Made by a program: the position numbers and the translations under genes
Shown: positions 15,287 to 62,524 of the stretch, in pieces
Layout of the letters: every line of letters begins with the position of its first letter
How positions within the stretch are numbered: the first letter of the stretch is position 1
Assembly (NCBI GenBank): GCA_001508155.1
Contig: LGFI01000001.1
Location: 62,001 to 126,000 of the forward strand
Direction: 5' to 3'
From: Acetothermia bacterium 64_32
GTDB lineage: Bacteria > Bipolaricaulota > Bipolaricaulia > Bipolaricaulales > Bipolaricaulaceae
DNA: 64,000 bases
Notes under the pieces: generated by a model
The model's database searches: none
What the model saw: the letters and a program-made list of their open reading frames with translations, nothing else
Told to the model about the DNA's origin: nothing

Positions 15287-15316
15287 ATTATATAGCAAAC
15301 AAAAGACTTTAGCCAA
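15287..15316 (-). promoter_or_regulatory. Promoter of the AbrB-PhoU regulator gene
   Basis: TTGGCT (15311-15316), an 18-base spacer and TATAAT (15287-15292) on the minus strand. It overlaps the end of the isomerase gene upstream. Transcription would begin about 20 bases before the GTG at 15259. Confidence 0.55.
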
Positions 15317-16052
15317 GTAGGCGGTGGAGGTCGTGGGCGAGGGCCTGGGGGGAGGTGGCCTCCACCACCCATCTTTCGGGGTGGAGGAGGGGGATGGCGG
15401 CTTCGAGCTGAACCGTTCCCTCCCCCAGGGGCAGGTGTTCGTCCTCCTGCCCGTGGTTGTCGTGCAGGTGTACGGAGTGGATGAGGGGGCGAAGCTGGGG
15501 GAGCAGGCTCAAGGTGGCTTCCCCGTGGGCGGTCCAGGCGTGTCCCAGGTCCAGGGTCCCTGGGAGGGAGAGTTCGAAAAGGAGCCTTCCGTACAGCTGG
15601 AGGTCCCATAGGAAGGAGTAGGGGGTTTTGGGATCGTTTTCCAGGGCCAGGGTGACCCCCAGGGTGCGGGCCAGGCTGGAGAGCCTTTGTATGGCGGCCT
15701 TGGCCTCCCCCCAAGGGGGGTCGTAGGGGGCTCCGGTGGAGCGGTACCCCAGGTGGAAGGTGACCCCGCGGGCCCCGAGCCGGGCGGCGAGCTCCAGGGT
15801 GCGGGCGAGCTCGGCTTCGGCGAAGGCCCGTGCCTGGGGATGGGGTGAGATCAGGTTCACGTCGGCTATGGGGGCGTGAAGGGAAAGCTCTGCCCCTTTG
15901 AGCCTGTGGACCAGCCGGGGGGGCCAGCCCCGGGGGTGCCAGGGGGGGTCGCACAGGACCTCGACCCCCTGAAAGCCCAGGGCCAGGGCCCTTTCCAGGG
16001 CCCGGTCCGGCGAAAGGGGGTGGAAGGCCAAGGTGGAGGCGAGGAGCCTCAT
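15309..16052 (-). CDS. Sugar phosphate isomerase/epimerase-like TIM-barrel protein (AP endonuclease 2 family)
   Basis: A 247-residue protein starting MRLLASTLAFHPLSP. It has the xylose-isomerase-like barrel pattern: GFQGVEVLCDPPW, LSLHAPIADVNL, GARGVTFHLGY, VTLALENDPKTPYSF, PGTLDLGHAW and IHSVHLHDNHGQEDEHLPLGEG, with the Glu, Asp and His residues that bind the divalent metal. It could be an isomerase/epimerase or an endonuclease IV relative; the DNA-repair metal set is not complete enough to call it Nfo. The start at 16052 overlaps the stop of the HAD remnant by ATGA, so the two were once an operon. Confidence 0.8.
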   Translation of the reverse strand: MRLLASTLAFHPLSPDRALERALALGFQGVEVLCDPPWHPRGWPPRLVHRLKGAELSLHAPIADVNLISPHPQARAFAEAELARTLELAARLGARGVTFHLGYRSTGAPYDPPWGEAKAAIQRLSSLARTLGVTLALENDPKTPYSFLWDLQLYGRLLFELSLPGTLDLGHAWTAHGEATLSLLPQLRPLIHSVHLHDNHGQEDEHLPLGEGTVQLEAAIPLLHPERWVVEATSPQALAHDLHRLLG

Positions 16053-16162
16053 CGCTCCCCCTCCTTCGCCAGCTCCAGCACTGTGCGGACAACCCTGTCG
16101 GCTACGGCCCGCACCCCGGGCGGGGCATGGGCCATCGCCACCCCCAGCCCGGCCCCGTTCAT
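16049..16162 (-). pseudogene. C-terminal remnant of a HAD-family (Cof-type) phosphatase
   Basis: A 37-codon reading frame beginning MNGAGLGVAMAHAPPG and continuing VRAVADRVV. This matches the conserved C-terminal end of Cof-type HAD phosphatases (an AGLGVAM-NA-x-VK-x-AAD block), with nothing of the catalytic N-terminal part left. Its stop overlaps the start of the TIM-barrel gene and its ATG overlaps the stop of the HD-GYP gene, both as ATGA. It looks like the stump of a gene whose 5' part was replaced by the HD-GYP gene. It may still be translated. The family assignment rests on one short block. Confidence 0.55.
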
Positions 16163-17454
16163 GTCCCTGGAGGGACATCCACTTCGGGCCTCAGGGCCCT
16201 GAACTCACCCAACGCCATCCTTTGGGATTCCCGCCGCGCTTCGTCTATTTCAAACAGCCTGTCCTTAAGGAGCGAACCCACCAGAGGATCGAGTGCCCCC
16301 TCCCTCACCATCCGCTCTATAACCCCTACAGCTTCATTAGCCGTCATACCATTTCTACAGGGCCTGTCCTCGGTCAAGGCGGTGAACACATCGGCCACCG
16401 CCATTATCCTCGAACCAAACGGAAGATCATCCCCCTTCAGGTGAAACGGGTAACCACTCCCGTCGAGGCGTTCGTGGTGCAAAGACGCCCATGCATTCAC
16501 CGTCTCCAACCCGGGTATTTTCTCCAGTATGCGGTAGGTGTAGTGAGTATGAGTCCGGATTAAAGCGAACTCCTGCGCTGTTAATCTCTCTGCCTTTTCC
16601 AGTATCTCGTTTGGCACAGCTAGCTTCCCCAGATCGTGAAGATAGCCGGAAAGCCGCATGATATCTTGCTCCCGAGGGGAGAGGCCAGCGGCCCGGGCCA
16701 GGGCTGCGGCGGTGCCAGCCACTCCGGCAACGTGGGCAGCAGTGAAACGGCTTCTGAAATCCACCAGACGCGCAGTCAGACTCCCGACGGCAAGCAGCCC
16801 CTTCAGGCTTAACCTCGATTCAGATAACGGGCGATATTCGTATAAGATATCCTTTAAACTAGGGGAGGAGACATCAAGCCAAAAGGACTCCTTCCCGGCA
16901 AGGGATTTGAAGGCCGCTACAAATTCGGGAACAAAAGTGTGGTTTGTTCCCTCTTCTATTTTTGCTACGATCCCTTGGGTTTGTTGGAGGATGGGCATCC
17001 CCGGCTCGATGAGAACCGCTATCCTATCCGCGAGGTGAAGGACATGGCTCTCTCGGGGGACCTCATGGCCTCCGCATTCGCTTCCCTGGCCCGCTTCCCA
17101 TCTGGTGTGATGAAACCTTACCACCTCAGCTTCCCGGTCAAGCAACCCACAGGTTCTAAGGAGGCGATAGCCCATCTCCGCGTGCCTTTGAGTCCCTGCT
17201 ACATCGAACTTGAGTAGGTCTATCCTTTCCTTCACCTCCAGGGATCCCACATCGTGCAGTAGGCCTGCAGTCAAGACGAGGTTCTTCTCCCTCCGGGAAA
17301 GGCCCAGTTCGTCGGCGAGGGAGCAGCCGATATAAGCCACCCTGAAGTGGTGGTTCACCAAGACCGGACTTACCAGGTCCATAGCGTGGGAGAGGGCCAT
17401 GAGTACATCGAAAAGCGGAACCAGGAGTTCCCCGATCATGATAAACGCTCCCAA
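16159..17454 (-). CDS. Tandem HD-domain protein with C-terminal HD-GYP
   Basis: A 431-residue cytoplasmic protein with two HD domains. The first (about residues 34-160) contains GLLHDVGSLE and VVRFHH but no GYP. The second (about 235-390) has SGYLHDLGKLAVP, HTHYTYRILEK and HHERLDGSGYP, the full HD-GYP signature, which in characterised proteins hydrolyses cyclic-di-GMP. No membrane or receiver domain is seen. The base composition and codons look less G+C-rich than its neighbours, and its end abuts a truncated HAD gene, both consistent with later insertion. 208 bases without a gene separate it from the protease gene; nothing recognisable was seen there. Confidence 0.85.
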   Translation of the reverse strand: MGAFIMIGELLVPLFDVLMALSHAMDLVSPVLVNHHFRVAYIGCSLADELGLSRREKNLVLTAGLLHDVGSLEVKERIDLLKFDVAGTQRHAEMGYRLLRTCGLLDREAEVVRFHHTRWEAGQGSECGGHEVPRESHVLHLADRIAVLIEPGMPILQQTQGIVAKIEEGTNHTFVPEFVAAFKSLAGKESFWLDVSSPSLKDILYEYRPLSESRLSLKGLLAVGSLTARLVDFRSRFTAAHVAGVAGTAAALARAAGLSPREQDIMRLSGYLHDLGKLAVPNEILEKAERLTAQEFALIRTHTHYTYRILEKIPGLETVNAWASLHHERLDGSGYPFHLKGDDLPFGSRIMAVADVFTALTEDRPCRNGMTANEAVGVIERMVREGALDPLVGSLLKDRLFEIDEARRESQRMALGEFRALRPEVDVPPGT

Positions 17455-17662: not shown

Positions 17663-20053
17663 CTACTCCTCCTCCGCCTTCAGGTGCTCCCGGAGCTCCT
17701 CAAGGCGCCTTTGCACCAGGTGGAACAGGGTACCCTCCGGGTAGTTGCCCTCCTCATCCGGGGTCCCGGCCGGCATCCCCGAAAGGATCTGGATCCCCTC
17801 CTCCACGGTCCCCACCGCCCAGATGTGGAACCTGCCCTCCCTGACGGCCTCCAGCACCTCCTCGGGGAGCATGAGGTCGTCCACGTTCCCCTCCGGGATG
17901 ATCACCCCCTGCTCCCCGGTCAGGCCCAGCTCCTTGCACACAAGGAAGTGCCCTTCGATCTTCTCGTTCACCCCGCCCACGGGCTGCAGGCGCCCCTTCT
18001 GGTCCACCGAACCGGTGACCGCTATCCCCTGCTTGAGCGGGACCCCCGACAGGCTGGAAAGGAGGGCAAAGAGCTCGGCCGCGGAGGCCGAGTCCCCCTC
18101 CACCAGCGAGTAGGACTGCTCGAAGGCGATGCTCGCGGAAAGCGAAAGCGGCCCCTGGGCGGCGAACTTCTCCCCCAGATATCCCTTGAGGATCATCACC
18201 CCCTTTGTGTGAAGCTTCCCCGAGAGCTTGGCCTCGCGCTCGATGTCCACCACCCCGTCCTTGCCGGCGAACACGTTGGCCGTGATCCGAGAGGGTTTTC
18301 CGAACGCGAAGTCCCCCAGGTCGATCACCGCCAGGCCGTTCACCTGGCCCACCTTGGCCCCGGACATGTCCACGATGAGCTTCCCCCGGGCGATCCTCTC
18401 CCGGACCTTCTCGGCCAGGAGGGCATGACGGCTCCTGCCCTTCTCTATCGCCGTCCGCACGTGGCGGGCCTCCACACTCTGGGCCCCCTCCTCCCTGGCC
18501 CAAAAGCTGGCCTCCCGAACCAGGGCCGCCAGGCTGGCAAATCGGGTGGAGAGCTTCCTTTGGCTCCCGGCCAGCTCCCCGGCATACTCCACCACCTTCG
18601 CCACCCCGGAGGGGGAGAAGGGCAGGATCCCGGGGTCCTCCACCCGCCGCGCCCGGATGAACCTGGCTATCGCCTCCTCCGCCTCCTCGGTCCAGTCCAT
18701 CTCGGTGTCGAAGTCCGAACGCACGGTGAAGAGCTTGGGGAAGTCCTCATCGTAGTAGTGCAAAAGATAGTAAAGATAGGGTGAACCAATGATGACCACC
18801 TTCACGTCCAAGGGGATGGGTTCGGGCCTGAGGCCCTCGGTGGAGGCGAGCCCCAGCATCTGGGCCGGGTCCTCGATGCGGATCTCCCCGGTCTTTAGGG
18901 CGATCTTGAGCCCCTCCCAGCTGATGCTGAAGCGCAGGAGGTTGGAGGCCGAGAGCACCAGGTAGCCGCCGTTGGCCCGGTGGAGAGAGCCGGCCCGGAT
19001 CTGGGTGAAGTCGGTGGTGACCACCCCGAACTGGACCCTCCTTTCCACCGTGCCGAACAGGTTGGTGTAGGTGGCGTTCTCCTCCACCACCACCGGGGCC
19101 CCCTCCAGGCCGGAGTTGTCCACGATCACGTTCACCCGGTAGCGCTGATAGGGGTCCGCCCCCCCTGGGACCGGGATGGGCAAGGCCGGCTTCTTGTTGG
19201 CGGCCTGGAGGTCCTCCACGTTCTGGACGATGTCGGCCTGGGCCTCCTCCAGGAACTCTTGCACCCGGTCGATCCCCGCGTATTTCCGCTTGAGCTGGGC
19301 AAACCGCGGCTCGATCAAAAACTGCACCGCTTTCTTGGTCAGATGCCGGCGAGCCTCCTGCCATCTTTCCTCAAGCTCCCCCAGCTTCTGGAAGGCCTCG
19401 CGGATGGCCTCCTGCAGTTCCTCCTGGCGCCGCAATATGGCCTCCCGCTCCTCCTCTTGCAGGGCCTCGTACTCCTCCTGGGAATAGGGGGTCCCGTCCG
19501 GCTTCAAGGGCACGGTGTTTATCCCCACCGGGGTGCGTTGGATGGCGAACCCCAGCCGACGGGCCCGCTCCTCCAGCTCTTGGAACAGCTCCTCGCGCCT
19601 GGCCACGAACCGCTCCCTCTCCTCCTTGGCCTGGGCCTTGAAGTCCTCGGACTCCAGGACCTTCCCCAGTTCCCGCCTGAGGAAGTCGATGCAGCGGTCC
19701 ATGTCCTCCTTCAGCTCCCTGCCCTTTCCGGCCGGGAGCATCAGGTACCGTGGCCGATGTGGGACCTGGAAGTTGTGCACGTAGCAGACGTCCGGGGGGG
19801 TGGGCTGCTGGCGGGAGAGCTCCCGCAGGAAATGGGCCACGGCCGACGTCTTCCCCAAGCCCGCCTCACCGGTCACGAACACGTTGTAGCGGTTGCGGGG
19901 GTCCTTGATCTTGAGGCCCACCCGCAGGGCCTCCAGGGCCCGTTCCTGACCGATGATCCCCTCCAAAGGCTCGAGCTCATCCGTGGTGGAGAAACGAAAA
20001 CGCCCCGGATCGCAATGTCGCCTTAGCTCGTCCGGCTTCAAAGCTCTTGCCAT
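17663..20053 (-). CDS. ATP-dependent Lon-family protease, LonH/YcbZ-like
   Basis: A 796-residue protein. An N-terminal AAA domain has Walker A GEAGLGKT (residues 62-69), followed by a long charged coiled-coil insert (about 120-260) typical of this Lon subfamily. A second ATPase portion contains HRANGGYLVLSASNLL and VVIIGSPYLYYLL. The C-terminal Lon protease domain has the catalytic Ser in EGDSASAAEL and Lys in PVGGVNEKIEGH. It resembles E. coli YcbZ rather than the classical Lon with its own substrate-binding N-domain. AAGGAGGG precedes the ATG. It is divergent from the phospholipase-like gene, with overlapping -10 candidates between them. Confidence 0.9.
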   Translation of the reverse strand: MARALKPDELRRHCDPGRFRFSTTDELEPLEGIIGQERALEALRVGLKIKDPRNRYNVFVTGEAGLGKTSAVAHFLRELSRQQPTPPDVCYVHNFQVPHRPRYLMLPAGKGRELKEDMDRCIDFLRRELGKVLESEDFKAQAKEERERFVARREELFQELEERARRLGFAIQRTPVGINTVPLKPDGTPYSQEEYEALQEEEREAILRRQEELQEAIREAFQKLGELEERWQEARRHLTKKAVQFLIEPRFAQLKRKYAGIDRVQEFLEEAQADIVQNVEDLQAANKKPALPIPVPGGADPYQRYRVNVIVDNSGLEGAPVVVEENATYTNLFGTVERRVQFGVVTTDFTQIRAGSLHRANGGYLVLSASNLLRFSISWEGLKIALKTGEIRIEDPAQMLGLASTEGLRPEPIPLDVKVVIIGSPYLYYLLHYYDEDFPKLFTVRSDFDTEMDWTEEAEEAIARFIRARRVEDPGILPFSPSGVAKVVEYAGELAGSQRKLSTRFASLAALVREASFWAREEGAQSVEARHVRTAIEKGRSRHALLAEKVRERIARGKLIVDMSGAKVGQVNGLAVIDLGDFAFGKPSRITANVFAGKDGVVDIEREAKLSGKLHTKGVMILKGYLGEKFAAQGPLSLSASIAFEQSYSLVEGDSASAAELFALLSSLSGVPLKQGIAVTGSVDQKGRLQPVGGVNEKIEGHFLVCKELGLTGEQGVIIPEGNVDDLMLPEEVLEAVREGRFHIWAVGTVEEGIQILSGMPAGTPDEEGNYPEGTLFHLVQRRLEELREHLKAEEE

Positions 20054-56351: not shown

Positions 56352-57761
56352 TCATTGTGTATCACCTGGAGGCTGGTGCTTGCGAACTAACTCAGTTGTC
56401 CACCGGGCCAATTCGGTAATTCTTAGCTCTTCCATTCCTCGCATATAAGTTCGGAGATCATCATAGATTGGATCTGACCAACGTTTGTCCACAGCATCCG
56501 GCCCGAGCATGATGCCGAGCACAGTGGCTATTTGAGCGGCATTACAGTCTACATCCTGCCCAGCCATTGCGATAATACTCATTGTTTTATCGAAATTACC
56601 GTTACCATACCATAAAGCGATGATTTCTGCAGCGGCATTTGGGTAAGCGTGAACCCAGTTGTATCTTTCGAAGGTTTTCTCGCATCTTCTCCAAGCGCCA
56701 AGCCATTCTGACTCGTTTTTGCACATGTCGAGAGCGGTCTCCACTACCCAGCGGTATTGGCTGTCTATGGGAATGCAGCGAATAGCATCATGTACAAGCC
56801 TACGCACATCTGTTTCTACAAAGGCCATTGCCGTCAAAACCGCGTTGAATACCTCCCCCAAGACACCGTTGGATTGGTGCGAGATCACGCCATCAACCCA
56901 CGCCAACCGGGCCGCCTCCGCAGGATTACCTGGAGTGACCATCCCAATCACTGCTCCTCTCATTTGGGCACCAATCCATTCCGAGAAGGGGTTTGATCTC
57001 ACCCCGCTTTCGGGAGGAAAAATACCTAACCTAAGATTATTCAAAGCTATATATTCTGCTGACCATCCAAAAGGGATACGAGCAACCCATTCTTCAGCAA
57101 TATCACTTGATTCGACTTTGTAGCCCTCTTTCTCGAAGGCCTTAAGGAAAGCCAGCTCATAAGTGACATCATCATTATAAGTTTCAGGAGGCCGAACGTA
57201 ATAGCTAATTTCACCATAGGCCTCAAGTAAGTGATCTGTAATATATCCCTCAAGAGCGGTACCAAGGGCACCACCACAAATTTGTGCGAGCCATCCACCG
57301 TAAATTCGTTCCTCAAAATTGGTACTGCGGGTGTCAACCGGTTCGGCTGCGGGGAAACGAACCTTTATTTTATGGTCTTCCCAAGACAATGGATGCCTAA
57401 AATTCCAGTACTCCGATTTATGATTAGGCGGAGCTTGTTGTAACTCTCTCCAAATACAGGCCGTAATTCTGTGCAAGGAAGGTACGTCATTTCGATCCCA
57501 AGCCTGAATCCCAGCAAGTAAAAGCTCCTCGGCTTTGTCTACTTGGAGCCCCTTGTTCTCAGCAGCCTGAACCGCCGCTACCATGAGACGTTCCGGCGCA
57601 CCGGATCCGGGCACTTCACTATACCACAGTGCTTTGACAAGGGCGTCTTCAACCTTTTGGATCTCCTTGATTGTATTCCATCCTGTCTCATGCACTAGCT
57701 TCGGACGGGCTTCCCTCCTGAGTTCTAATTCTAGCTCCCAAGCTTTAGGCACTGCAAACAC
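56352..57761 (-). CDS. ADP-ribosylglycohydrolase-family protein
   Basis: A 469-residue protein. After an N-terminal extension (about 145 residues, no recognised domain) the DraG/ADP-ribosyl-GH fold begins at ERIYGGWLAQICGGALGTALEGY. The metal site appears as YNDDVTYELA (usual T-DD-T form) and, near the C-terminus, MAGQDVDCNAAQIATVLG (GxDxDxxAA). Family members cleave N- or O-ribosyl bonds. Lying between nucleoside permeases and ribokinase, it may act as a nucleoside-type hydrolase that frees ribose; this is inference. Base composition is much more A+T-rich than the window average. Confidence 0.85.
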   Translation of the reverse strand: MFAVPKAWELELELRREARPKLVHETGWNTIKEIQKVEDALVKALWYSEVPGSGAPERLMVAAVQAAENKGLQVDKAEELLLAGIQAWDRNDVPSLHRITACIWRELQQAPPNHKSEYWNFRHPLSWEDHKIKVRFPAAEPVDTRSTNFEERIYGGWLAQICGGALGTALEGYITDHLLEAYGEISYYVRPPETYNDDVTYELAFLKAFEKEGYKVESSDIAEEWVARIPFGWSAEYIALNNLRLGIFPPESGVRSNPFSEWIGAQMRGAVIGMVTPGNPAEAARLAWVDGVISHQSNGVLGEVFNAVLTAMAFVETDVRRLVHDAIRCIPIDSQYRWVVETALDMCKNESEWLGAWRRCEKTFERYNWVHAYPNAAAEIIALWYGNGNFDKTMSIIAMAGQDVDCNAAQIATVLGIMLGPDAVDKRWSDPIYDDLRTYMRGMEELRITELARWTTELVRKHQPPGDTQ

Positions 57762-57803
57762 CTCCTCTATAACTCACGTTAAATAACAATCCATAAACTA
57801 ATG

Positions 57804-58712
57804 TCACCTCGTTGAATGTCTCCTTCGGTTAGCGTAGGCAACGAAAGCTACAATTGCAGCGATGTAAGGGATAGCATTGGCGAACTCAGCAGGAATCCGG
57901 AAGGCTTGAGCAGTGGCCGCGAAAGCCTCTGTAAAGCCAAAAACGAGTGAACCCCATAGGGCCCCAAAGGCGGACCGGCCTCCTAAAGTCTCGGCAACAA
58001 GACCTATGAAACCTCTACCAGCTGTCATCCCTCTGCCAAACCAAGACACGTACCCCATGGAAAGGAAGACACCGCCAAATCCGGCAAAGAAGCCGCTTAA
58101 CAACAAAGCGACCATTTTAACTCTGTTAACCCTGATGCCTACAGAAGCTGCGGCTTGTGGATGCTCACCCACTGCGCGCAATCTTAGGCCATATGGAGTC
58201 TTGTAAAGCATGTAATAAGCGATCAAGACCGATACGAAAGCAACGTAAGTTAGCACATTGTGACCGCTGACAATTTCTCCTAAGATTGGAATGTTGGCTA
58301 TTCCGGGGATATCGCATCGGGGAAGCACCAAGCTTTTTACTCCAGATGAAATACCTTTGTTGCCGGTAAACAAGTAGAGGAAAAGAACAGTGCTTCCCGA
58401 ACAAAATATATTAAGAGCAATTCCTGTGAGAATAAGATCTGATCGAAGTCTTAAGTGGAAATAACCTAACAGCGCTGCTATGCCCATAGCACTAACTACT
58501 CCTGTCAAAAGCCCAATCCAAGCGCTGCCTGTCCTTGCACTAACCAGTACCCCCCACAGAGCTGCTTGAAGCATCCCTCCTTCTACTGCGATGTTGACGA
58601 CCCCTGCAAGGTCGCTGATCAATATCCCAACGGAAGCGAAAAGTATTGGAGTTGTAACTCTCAGCGCAGCATACACGAATTCGGCATTGAAAATCATTCC
58701 AAGCTCATTCAT
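57804..58712 (-). CDS. Nucleoside-type ABC permease, NupC/YufQ-like
   Basis: A 302-residue membrane protein of the branched-chain/BPD_transp_2 class with about eight to ten hydrophobic segments. NIAVEGGMLQAALWG and YGLRLRAVGEHPQAAASVGI are typical of the second permease of BMP-dependent nucleoside importers. It overlaps the preceding permease gene by 4 bases. AATATGAT-type A+T-rich codons match the adjacent genes. Confidence 0.88.
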   Translation of the reverse strand: MNELGMIFNAEFVYAALRVTTPILFASVGILISDLAGVVNIAVEGGMLQAALWGVLVSARTGSAWIGLLTGVVSAMGIAALLGYFHLRLRSDLILTGIALNIFCSGSTVLFLYLFTGNKGISSGVKSLVLPRCDIPGIANIPILGEIVSGHNVLTYVAFVSVLIAYYMLYKTPYGLRLRAVGEHPQAAASVGIRVNRVKMVALLLSGFFAGFGGVFLSMGYVSWFGRGMTAGRGFIGLVAETLGGRSAFGALWGSLVFGFTEAFAATAQAFRIPAEFANAIPYIAAIVAFVAYANRRRHSTR

Positions 58713-59776
58713 CTTTGACTCACCTTTCGCTTAAGTCGCTTGCGTTGCCAAAGATTTAAAAGCGCTTCGGCAGTTACCAGCAGAACGATGATCGATTCCA
58801 AAACCATGGCCATCTCAGCTGAGACATCACTCCCGCGTTCCATCACTCGACCTCCAGTGCGCAGATAGGCAACGAAAAGCGCAGACAGTGGTACCAAAGC
58901 GGGATTGTTCCTCGCTATCAGGGCAATAATGACCCCATCAAATCCATAGCCAGGCATCGATTGCCAGAGATACCTGTGGTGAAGACCCGTTACTTCTATA
59001 GCTCCTGCCAGTCCAGCTACAGCTGCACTAATTACATTTGAGTAAATAATTACTCTTTTAACATTTATGCCATTAAAGGAAGCAAAACCGATGTTAGTGC
59101 CAACCATCCGGATTTCGTAACCCCATTTAGTTCGGTATAAGAAGTACCAGACCAGGCCTGCTATAATAAAAGCTATAACGAGACCACCGTTAATCCGATA
59201 TCTGGCTGATAGAAAAGGCAAGTAGCTAGTTGAAGGAATGAAAGGCGAAGCCATAAAACCAGCATAAATATCGCGGAAATGATTGTTTATTGTGTAATAT
59301 GCGGTGTAGAAGCCAATAAAATTCATCATGAGGGACACAACCAATACGCCAAGATTATCCCCTTCCTTCAAGCCATACGCTGACAAAAGGCCAGGTATTA
59401 CCCCCCAGAGCGCACCACAAAGCATGCCTGCCAGTATGGCCACCAAAAGGTGGATCACATCCACCTCGGGAAAGCTGAGAGCTACCATTGTAGCCCCCAA
59501 TGCACCTATAAGGAACTGCCCTTCGGCACCAATGCTGAATTGATTGGCCTGGAAAACGATAGCAACGGCGAGGCCTGCAAAAAGCAAAGGGATTGATTGG
59601 TTTAACCACTCTGCTAATCTAGAGATCCGAGCAAAAGGTCCAATGAGGAATAGACGATAAGCTCTCACGGGATCTTTACTGACTATTACTATAAAAATAA
59701 ACACTATTAATAAAGACAGGAAGACAGCTACCAGCGTCCTAACCAGTTCAAAAACGTTAGATCTCAACAATTCCAA
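58709..59776 (-). CDS. Nucleoside-type ABC permease, NupB/YufP-like
   Basis: A 355-residue membrane protein with about nine hydrophobic segments. NQFSIGAEGQFLIGALGA, GYEIRMVGTNIGFASFNGI and GYGFDGVIIALIARNNP are the conserved blocks of the larger nucleoside permease subunit. It overlaps the ATPase gene by 13 bases. Partner of the permease at 57804-58712 and the binding protein at 61378-62466. Confidence 0.88.
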   Translation of the reverse strand: MELLRSNVFELVRTLVAVFLSLLIVFIFIVIVSKDPVRAYRLFLIGPFARISRLAEWLNQSIPLLFAGLAVAIVFQANQFSIGAEGQFLIGALGATMVALSFPEVDVIHLLVAILAGMLCGALWGVIPGLLSAYGLKEGDNLGVLVVSLMMNFIGFYTAYYTINNHFRDIYAGFMASPFIPSTSYLPFLSARYRINGGLVIAFIIAGLVWYFLYRTKWGYEIRMVGTNIGFASFNGINVKRVIIYSNVISAAVAGLAGAIEVTGLHHRYLWQSMPGYGFDGVIIALIARNNPALVPLSALFVAYLRTGGRVMERGSDVSAEMAMVLESIIVLLVTAEALLNLWQRKRLKRKVSQR

Positions 59777-61311
59777 GCTCCTTCGGCCTCTTTCTCGCTC
59801 TGGCGCTCGACGCCAAGCATATACTGTCCCAATAACTCCGGAGTAACCGACTCAATATCAGCAAAATGGGCAACAATACTACCCTTGTACATCACTATGA
59901 TGCGATCTGCTAGTTGCATAATTTCTTCTAGATCGGTAGAGACAAGCAATATTGCCGCACCTCTATCGCGTTCGTCGATTAGTCTTTGGCGAACAAACTT
60001 TGTAGCAGCCACGTCAAGGCCTCGAGTAGGTTGGTCAGCGATCAACAATTGGGGACCTGCGGAAAGCTCTCGAGCCACGACAACTCTTTGGATATTCCCA
60101 CCAGAAAGGCTTCCCACTAGTGTCGAAGGCGCTATAGCTCTTATCGCAAACACATGCATCAGGTTCTTTGCATGCTCTCGAATCGCTTTCTTGTTCAACC
60201 CCCACCAGCGAGAGAATTCGCGCTTGAAATATCGGTCAGCAATGAGGTTTTCCTCTATGGAAGCCCTCATTGCGACCCCTCGCCCTATCCTGTCAGCAGG
60301 AATGCAGGCAACCCCCTGACTCCGGATCTCTTTTGGGGGAGCATTCGTGTATTCTTTATCATTAAGGAAAATCTTGCCACGCGTCGCCTTCCTCAAGCCC
60401 ACTAAAATATCCACCAATTCAGCCTGACCGTTTCCCTCCACTCCAGCTATAGCTACTATCTCGCCGGATCTAACCTTGAAGGAAACATTCTGTAATACGT
60501 TTCGTCCATCTCGAATATAAAACACACCCTTCACAGTGAGTACTTCAGCTCCAGGCTTCGTTGTCCTTTTTTTATAAACATCTACCTCTATGGCTCTGCC
60601 AACCATCATGCGAACGAGTTCGGCCTCCGACACTTCTGATACAAGACCGTTTCCAACGTTGCTTCCGTCTCTAAGTACAGTAAATCTGTCTGCTAATTGC
60701 TTAACTTCTTTTAATTTGTGTGTGACAAATATGATAGTTTTACCTCTTGTAACCAGAGTTTTTAGTGCTGCAAAGAGTTCCTCCGTCTCAAGAGGGGTCA
60801 AGACAGCGGTTGGTTCATCTAGGATAAGCAGCTCAGCTCCACGAAGTAAAACCTTTAGTATCTCAACTCGCTGTCTCATACCCACCGGAAGCTCGGCGAC
60901 GATCTCGTTATGTGAAACTGGAAGACCAAACTCCGCTCCGAACCGTTCTGTTAACTCTATCGCTTTACTCCTATCGATGCTTAATCCACGGCGAGGCTCA
61001 ATTCCCAGAACACAATTCTCCGCAACAGAAAGCGAGGGTATGAGCATAAACTCTTGATGGACCATACCAATTTTCAGCCGAATTGCATCTAGAGGGCTTG
61101 CGATGTGTACTTCCTTCCCTTCAAGGAATATTTTTCCAGCGTCGGCACGCTCTATGCCGTAAAGGATCTTCATCAGAGTGCTTTTGCCTGCTCCATTCTC
61201 TCCTAACAAAGCGTGTATTTCGCCTTTTTCTACATTCAAATTGATGTTTCTATTAGCTACCACGCCGTTAGGATAAACTTTTGTAATACCGCACATATTA
61301 AGGTATGACAC
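59764..61311 (-). CDS. Nucleoside-type ABC importer ATPase (two fused nucleotide-binding domains)
   Basis: A 515-residue tandem ATPase of the RbsA/YufO type. The first domain has Walker A GENGAGKST (about residues 37-45), signature-like ELPVGMRQRVEILKVLLRGAELLILDEPTA. The second has the weaker AGVEGNGQAEL in place of Walker A, but a normal LSGGNIQRVVVARELS and DQPTRGLD. This asymmetry is normal for the family. It follows a hairpin with a T-run after the binding-protein gene, which should reduce its expression relative to the binding protein. Confidence 0.93.
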   Translation of the reverse strand: MSYLNMCGITKVYPNGVVANRNINLNVEKGEIHALLGENGAGKSTLMKILYGIERADAGKIFLEGKEVHIASPLDAIRLKIGMVHQEFMLIPSLSVAENCVLGIEPRRGLSIDRSKAIELTERFGAEFGLPVSHNEIVAELPVGMRQRVEILKVLLRGAELLILDEPTAVLTPLETEELFAALKTLVTRGKTIIFVTHKLKEVKQLADRFTVLRDGSNVGNGLVSEVSEAELVRMMVGRAIEVDVYKKRTTKPGAEVLTVKGVFYIRDGRNVLQNVSFKVRSGEIVAIAGVEGNGQAELVDILVGLRKATRGKIFLNDKEYTNAPPKEIRSQGVACIPADRIGRGVAMRASIEENLIADRYFKREFSRWWGLNKKAIREHAKNLMHVFAIRAIAPSTLVGSLSGGNIQRVVVARELSAGPQLLIADQPTRGLDVAATKFVRQRLIDERDRGAAILLVSTDLEEIMQLADRIIVMYKGSIVAHFADIESVTPELLGQYMLGVERQSEKEAEGAWNC

Positions 61312-61325
61312 CCTACACTCCTCAG

Positions 61326-61368
61326 AAAAAGGGAAGGGGTGGAAGAAGTATTCTCCACCCCCTCCCTT
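61326..61368 (-). terminator. Internal terminator/attenuator between binding protein and ATPase genes
   Basis: A 15-bp stem with one wobble pair (61329-61343 and 61354-61368) and a 10-base loop, followed on the minus strand by TTTTT (61326-61330). It lies 9 bases after the binding-protein stop and 14 bases before the ATPase start, the classic place to make binding protein in excess. Confidence 0.75.
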
Positions 61369-61377
61369 AGTTTTTCG

Positions 61378-62466
61378 TTAAGGCTTCACCGCCTGCCGCA
61401 TAGCGTCCAATTCCTGGGGTGCCATTCCGAAGGCTGACCGTACCACAATCTCCCCTGCCAAGATCTTTTGCTCCAGTTCTGTCAACGTTTTTCTAAAGCT
61501 CTCGGGCACGTGTGTCCGATATATTGAGTTGTCAGCCAATCCTACTGCACCTTCCGCTATTCCCCAAGCCTCCGCCTGTCCATAAGGCAATTTGCCCGTC
61601 ATATGCAATTTTAAGGCGTGGAATAGCGATACATCGACTTTTTTGAGTGCGGAAGACAAAATATGTTCTGCGGTTTCGGTGTCCCCAAGCTTTTCGGCGA
61701 AGATCAACGCCTGGTCGTCGTCCACTCCGATTGCATATTTATCGACCTCTTTAGCAGCTTCCAAAGCACCAAGGCCGGTCATAGCAGCGGCAGGGAACAC
61801 AACGTCAGCTCCTGCCCTATATTGCGCGAGAGCGAGCTCTTTCCCTTTAGCTGGATCAGAGAAAGTGCCTGCATAAGCAATCAGAACCTTGACTGCGGGA
61901 TTGATATATTGAGCACCCTGGATATATCCCACTAAAAAGTCGTTAATGATAGGATAATCCTGCCCCCCTATAAATCCAATTATTGGCTCAGGATTAGCTT
62001 TTGGCATATCTGAGGTGGTCACGAGTGCAGCTAGTGCTCCAGCAAGAAAGGCACCCTCATTTTGTTTGTAAAGTATGCTGTATACATTGGTTAGCTCGGG
62101 GTGGCGCTCATAGTCGACCTGGGTATCAAACAAGATGAAATGTTTATCCGGAAGTAAAGCGGCTACTCGCTCTACATGCGTTGCCATAGGTGGAGCTCCA
62201 GTGATAATGACATCGTAGGGACCATAAGCCACATCTTCAAGTCCTGGACCCCATGCTGCCGGATCGGGTCCCGCCTCTATGATGGTGTACTGAATACCGA
62301 GGTCTTCTGCAGCCATTGTTACTCCTCGAGCCGCTGAGTCGAAGAAACCCATATCCCCCAAATTACCGGGGAGAAATAGGGCGACTTTAAGTTGGTCCCC
62401 ATAGGCGATGGACACGCCCCCTATGACCCCTAAGACCAAGACTGCCAAGCAAAGTACCCGTTTCAT
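61378..62466 (-). CDS. BMP-family nucleoside-binding protein
   Basis: A 362-residue exported binding protein. The ATG at 62466 follows GGGAGGTGCTAAGT and gives a clean signal peptide (VLCLAVLVLGVIGGVSIAYG); it has no lipobox Cys. LKVALFLPGNLGDMGFFDSAARGV, PIIGFIGGQDYPIINDFLVGYIQGAQYINP and the AAAMTGLGALEAA segment are the BMP/Med/PnrA landmarks, a family that binds purine nucleosides. It follows lacI and starts the A+T-rich block. Confidence 0.9.
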   Translation of the reverse strand: MKRVLCLAVLVLGVIGGVSIAYGDQLKVALFLPGNLGDMGFFDSAARGVTMAAEDLGIQYTIIEAGPDPAAWGPGLEDVAYGPYDVIITGAPPMATHVERVAALLPDKHFILFDTQVDYERHPELTNVYSILYKQNEGAFLAGALAALVTTSDMPKANPEPIIGFIGGQDYPIINDFLVGYIQGAQYINPAVKVLIAYAGTFSDPAKGKELALAQYRAGADVVFPAAAMTGLGALEAAKEVDKYAIGVDDDQALIFAEKLGDTETAEHILSSALKKVDVSLFHALKLHMTGKLPYGQAEAWGIAEGAVGLADNSIYRTHVPESFRKTLTELEQKILAGEIVVRSAFGMAPQELDAMRQAVKP

Positions 62467-62524
62467 ACTTAGCACCTCCCTCTTTTTCTCACGTCTTCCT
62501 GTTGACTTCATACAGTGTTATCTT

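Follow-up and report, generated by a model that had tools for sequence, protein, structure and literature searches.

The 37-codon open reading frame between an HD-GYP phosphodiesterase gene and a TIM-barrel gene of Acetothermia bacterium 64_32 is almost certainly a relic, consisting of the last ~34–36 codons of a Cof-type HAD (HAD-IIB) phosphatase gene. It is likely that this relic was produced by rearrangement or deletion, with the tail of the HAD gene being spared as the 5′ flank of the TIM-barrel (TIM) gene. The window, i.e. the whole stretch of DNA that was analysed, comprises 64,000 nucleotides of the host genome (G000), a 92%-complete draft assembly of 1.81 Mb in 33 contigs.

The genes of interest are all on the minus strand and are ordered as follows: a Lon-type protease gene (17663..20053), the HD-GYP phosphodiesterase gene (16159..17439, with an alternative TTG start at 17454), the 37-codon stump (16049..16162), the TIM gene (15309..16052), a PhoU-like regulator and a Pst phosphate transporter. 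The Lon gene forms the end of a PLD–Lon block that is conserved in relatives, and the TIM gene, whose product is xylose-isomerase-like (AP_endonuc_2, with weak similarity to CbiR), heads the PhoU-like/Pst block, which is also present in G001, the one other genome from this genus. The stump shares a 4-nt ATGA overlap with each of its neighbors, HD-GYP and TIM, exactly as the sequence-only reading had placed it; since, by a rough count, 4-nt start/stop overlaps are found in 8 of the 35 adjacent same-strand ORF pairs of the window, the overlap alone is unremarkable. Stop codons are met a short distance upstream in the reading frame of the stump, so that no longer HAD frame is concealed within the HD-GYP gene. 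The last codons of the stump contain an AGGAGG core (16060..16065, minus strand), positioned 7 nt before the ATG of the TIM gene, which from its sequence would act as the Shine-Dalgarno-like element of that gene. A perfect hairpin with a 7-bp stem and a 4-nt loop (16161..16178) spans the HD-GYP stop and the ATG of the stump, but such hairpins are common in the window (60, as compared to 24–33 in shuffles) and it is therefore not taken as functional. No promoter-like match was detected between the HD-GYP and TIM genes, the sole match (15287–15316) lying past the TIM gene. Elsewhere in the window, positions 56352–62511 make up a low-GC block (GC 0.45–0.50, GC3 0.43–0.48), which carries a Bmp/PnrA-type ABC transporter and an ADP-ribosylglycohydrolase gene and has perhaps been acquired.

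The identity of the stump is evident from a phylum-specific HAD profile, built from 17 full-length Bipolaricaulota HADs with the stump left out, against which it scores 32.0 bits, with a maximum of 4.0 among 1000 shuffles; the C-terminal Cof-type block recognized in the sequence-only reading is thereby borne out. Among 5293 six-frame segments from the window and the TIM-gene loci, the stump was the only one to match the HAD profile at E ≤ 1 (31.2 bits, E 3.2e-8), and when it is aligned locally to each of the family's 18 HAD sequences, of which 17 are full length and one is a tail, it scores between 57 and 90, each time above the best of 500 shuffles (44–56). In an alignment with the full-length HADs, the stump covers everything from immediately past motif IV (GDQxxD) to the natural C-terminus, retaining the well-conserved HAD columns of the aligned segment (about ten columns). 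It most closely matches a contig-terminal HAD tail of G003, with which it has in common the AGLGVAMAHAP block and the pattern that follows. Generic profiles yielded sub-threshold matches, namely Pfam Hydrolase_3 (E 0.013, below cut-off, profile positions 220–245 of 255) and TIGR00099 (E 0.053), with Pfam Ribosomal_S5_C (E 0.0051, also below cut-off) ranking slightly above Hydrolase_3. That order, and the failure of the generic profiles to reach their thresholds, would fit a chance resemblance or an S5-like fragment at a site where no HAD was ever present, which is barely credible given the score against the phylum profile, approached by none of the shuffles, and an alignment in the right register at the C-terminus.

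Cof-type HAD phosphatases are characterized by motif I (DxDGT), motif II, the lysine of motif III and motif IV (GDxxxD). The alignment shows that motifs I–IV are all absent from the stump, which starts past every one of them and is therefore no enzyme. Judged by its sequence, the stump is a fragment of the Cof-type HAD family by descent and not a functional member of it: the C-terminal part alone is left, as in a 3′-end relic, and the remainder is missing from the locus. It could be argued that the stump has been retained as a functional coupling leader or as a small protein between HD-GYP and TIM, as its frame is open, ATGA overlaps are present at both ends, the conserved HAD columns are kept, and similar tails stand before other genes in G002 and G025. 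Such a role is nonetheless unlikely, because no second genome with the same stump was found among the relatives searched, the roughly ten conserved columns set no more than a bound on the amount of change and are compatible with a recent event, and what is left begins beyond the catalytic motifs.

Other parts of the HAD to which the stump belonged were not found in its own genome with the family profile, which in this 92%-complete assembly matched the stump and one distant HAD, the latter in its C-terminal part alone. The HADs on contigs C7 and C32 of the same genome were rejected as the origin of the stump, as they match mainly the C-terminal part of the profile and sit in longer, other HAD frames. 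A HAD-IA gene found downstream of Lon at a distance of ~1.1 kb in G001 and G003 was likewise considered as a syntenic source and discarded, since it scores at shuffle level when compared with the stump (27 and 20, shuffle means about 26). Near-full-length HAD matches (E 1e-97 or better) are present in 22 of 100 Bipolaricaulota genomes, and the neighbors were examined for 17 of these 22 full-length loci. The gene directly upstream of the HAD is an intact ABC-transporter ATPase in 14 loci and an ATPase stump in two, with a contig end in the remaining one, indicating that the HAD usually closes an ABC transporter operon. The phylum's Cof-type HAD-IIB phosphatases (G002, G006, G031 and others) thus share with the stump the C-terminal AGLGVAMAHAP...AD block and the C-terminus, but differ from it in their full length (~260 aa), in this genomic setting, and in that the stump has no catalytic motif. 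In G010, a different TIM-barrel gene overlaps the HAD downstream. Two apparent HAD stumps, G003:C156 and G014:C296, are contig ends and not relics. In G011, the ORF following the HAD (L119:3699-4271, G011:C47) seemingly lacks the first ~86 residues of its counterpart in G006.

Among the 99 other genomes, an orthologue of the TIM gene (E 1e-40 or better) is present in 19, which all belong to one family, and 18 of these relatives have at least 1.1 kb of sequence upstream of it, G007 having too little to tell. A scan of the TIM loci with the HAD profile revealed a HAD or a HAD remnant before TIM in none of the 18 checkable relatives, and the check proposed in the sequence-only reading, i.e. a full HAD gene at this place in related genomes, accordingly came out negative. 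In all 10 genomes that have both the HAD and the TIM gene, the two are on different contigs. The gene preceding TIM varies among the relatives and is, for example, an intact RadC in G002 and CoaD in G003 (names assigned by eye, except for RadC); the TIM–PhoU–Pst block is common to the window and G001, with a different gene upstream of it in the latter. On the other side of the junction, Lon keeps its PLD neighbor in several relatives, where other genes then follow Lon. The Lon/HD-GYP/stump/TIM junction was seen in its own genome only, and exact matches to it in viral contigs numbered zero. In G002, a Lon gene (L214:4509-4820, G002:C25) is split into several frames by in-frame stops, possibly owing to sequencing error.

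HD-GYP phosphodiesterases carry the motifs HD...HDxGK...HHExxDGxGYP. The HD-GYP gene next to the stump is intact, encodes two HD domains, and contains the motifs LHDLGK and HHERLDGSGYP (Pfam HD_5, E 1.7e-47). Among solved proteins, its product is closest in sequence to V-cGAP3 (PDB 5z7c, E 3.3e-34), the likeness residing in the HD-GYP domain, with the best stretch at residues 207–386 and weak matches in the N-terminal part as well; V-cGAP3 acts on 3′3′-cGAMP, while the product of the gene described here is a putative phosphodiesterase. The gene also differs in composition from its surroundings, as the sequence-only reading had suggested: its GC3 is 0.625, as opposed to 0.83–0.92 for the neighbors (0.85–0.915 for TIM, PhoU-like, PstS, PstC, PstB and Lon, and 0.83 for PLD). 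A full-length orthologue was found in one of 59 relatives, G003, with 55% identity and in another gene context. The final ~8 residues of the HD-GYP protein have no counterpart in the aligned part of this orthologue, the last aligned residue being 418 of 426, and the interval from that residue to the first HAD-homologous residue of the stump (16159..16186, minus strand) would contain the breakpoint. No direct repeats that stand out were found to flank the HD-GYP gene.

These properties bear on the proposal of the sequence-only reading that the HD-GYP gene replaced most of a HAD gene. The proposal stands insofar as the stump is a HAD tail, the remainder was not found in the genome, and an HD-GYP gene of odd composition and patchy occurrence lies exactly where the body of the HAD would have been; it is not supported by the relatives, as none of the 18 checkable ones has a HAD at this site. 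In its one-step form, a horizontally acquired HD-GYP gene would have taken the place of the HAD body by recombination into a HAD–TIM operon, with the coupling left intact. The foreign-like GC3, the patchiness, and the exact abutment on the tail are in agreement with this course of events, which is nevertheless rather doubtful in view of the relatives' loci and of the Lon-side flank, which has been rearranged as well in this genome; a wider rearrangement fits at least as well as a one-step replacement, and the same facts are accounted for if a rearrangement or deletion brought an HD-GYP gene up against the 3′ end of a HAD gene.

Stumps of a similar kind are present at other loci of the family. 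In G001, a RadC C-terminal stump of 43 codons (L045:935-1066, G001:C60) separates a xanthine-dehydrogenase-like gene from the TIM gene; it matches RadC residues 190–225 (Pfam RadC, 28.8 bits, cut-off 22.1), and a full-length RadC match is found elsewhere in that genome on another contig. The intact RadC gene of G002 lies 45 nt before TIM. In G002, moreover, ~50 C-terminal residues of an ABC ATPase precede the HAD, the junction being a GTGA overlap as in the congeneric genome G014, and upstream of this tail is a 78-codon N-terminal piece of a metallo-beta-lactamase, such that the region (L112:2603-3015, G002:C82) looks like a deletion junction. A 24-residue ABC ATPase tail in G025 (L127:3825-3896, minus strand, G025:C70) lies between a substrate-binding protein gene and the HAD, its stop being 4 nt from the HAD start, the same as in G019 and G022. 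The three parallels also bear on the possibility that the junction in the window is an assembly chimera. The assembly is a draft of 33 contigs and the genomes of the relatives are mostly drafts too, but the junction lies inside a contig of 219,737 bases with exact overlaps on both sides, and with comparable stumps in three other assemblies (G001, G002 and G025) a chimera is very improbable. As a separate observation, the genome of the window has an internally deleted RadC relic of its own (L190:3726-3908, G000:C29), and an intact RadC was not found in it.

The leads in G001 and G025 came from a first scan for stumps, which considered tails of 20–90 aa from 60 sources in 484 kb; another scan, in which composition was not corrected for, yielded mostly shadow frames of GC-rich sequence and was disregarded. 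A filtered scan, using 304 of 968 ORFs and 209 conserved queries, gave 29 candidate sites, 24 of the 3′ type and five of the 5′ type, and added the G002 case. On sorting by eye, most of these sites turned out to be over-extended starts. It has to be noted that the scans covered loci fetched for other reasons and that no rate or significance is claimed for 3′ retention: with few stumps, a limited search and 5′-end pieces among the sites, a retention of 3′ ends above chance cannot be claimed.

In the model that we consider likely, the HAD gene would once have stood directly before TIM, the two being joined by an ATGA overlap. In the lineage of the host, ~225 codons from the start of the HAD gene would then have been lost by rearrangement or deletion, and the HAD tail would have been fused, out of frame, to the end of an accessory HD-GYP gene or of an incoming segment with HD-GYP, so that the HD-GYP frame would now stop at a TGA overlapping the first Met codon of the stump. 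HD-GYP may have arrived in the same event in which the HAD was lost. The sequence-only reading had held that a clean replacement or selection for continued coupling would be needed for both overlaps to be kept, which does not seem to be so: the stump/TIM ATGA would simply be what was once the junction of HAD and TIM, and the ATGA between HD-GYP and the stump would result from the HD-GYP frame running into the TGA over a Met codon of the HAD frame. The tail would persist as the 5′ flank of TIM, in which the Shine-Dalgarno sequence of that gene lies and across which ribosomes would be handed on to it from the upstream gene. The simplest explanation for a tail surviving beside an intact downstream gene is that the translation start region of that gene lies inside the tail, and we somewhat favor the view that the stump owes its survival to the TIM start region. 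The same class of event has probably left the RadC tail before TIM in G001 and the ABC-ATPase tails before the HAD in G002 and G025; in its general form, an upstream gene would be removed except for its last 24–50 codons, which carry the translation start of the next gene. We infer the order of these events and, as no relative has a HAD adjoining TIM, the ancestral HAD–TIM arrangement as well.

The case can be compared with two known situations. Truncated pseudogenes and gene relics are the decayed remnants of once-full genes in bacterial genomes, and the stump differs from them in being specifically a 3′ end whose stop–start overlap with the next gene is kept. The other is gene displacement in situ with the formation of mosaic operons, a concept reportedly put forward by Omelchenko et al. 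2003. Here, too, the gene at one position in an operon would have been exchanged while neighbors and coupling stay, but the newcomer is unrelated to the gene that was lost, the 3′ end of the old gene was left behind, and the displaced gene was found at the same site in 0 of 18 relatives. In the parts of the literature on gene displacement, gene remnants and Bipolaricaulota that were drawn upon, no description of 3′-stump leaders was met, and such descriptions may exist elsewhere.

The stump is, in summary, an ordinary gene relic with a neat and recurring form. More tentatively, these compact and heavily overlapped genomes may filter rearrangements in such a way that, when a gene is lost, its last ~25–50 codons remain as the “relic leader” of the next one. 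If so, such ORFs would record former gene neighbors while still carrying translational coupling, and the four cases of this family (G000, G001, G002 and G025) would belong to a general class whose members can be counted. Annotations usually drop the short ORFs between overlapping genes or list them as hypothetical proteins, but some of them, as the stump and its three parallels show, are readable fossils of the former upstream gene. The stumps hint that the translation start region of a surviving gene possibly limits the extent of a deletion, and they would offer a simple route to the lost gene order in the fragmented genomes of uncultured bacteria.
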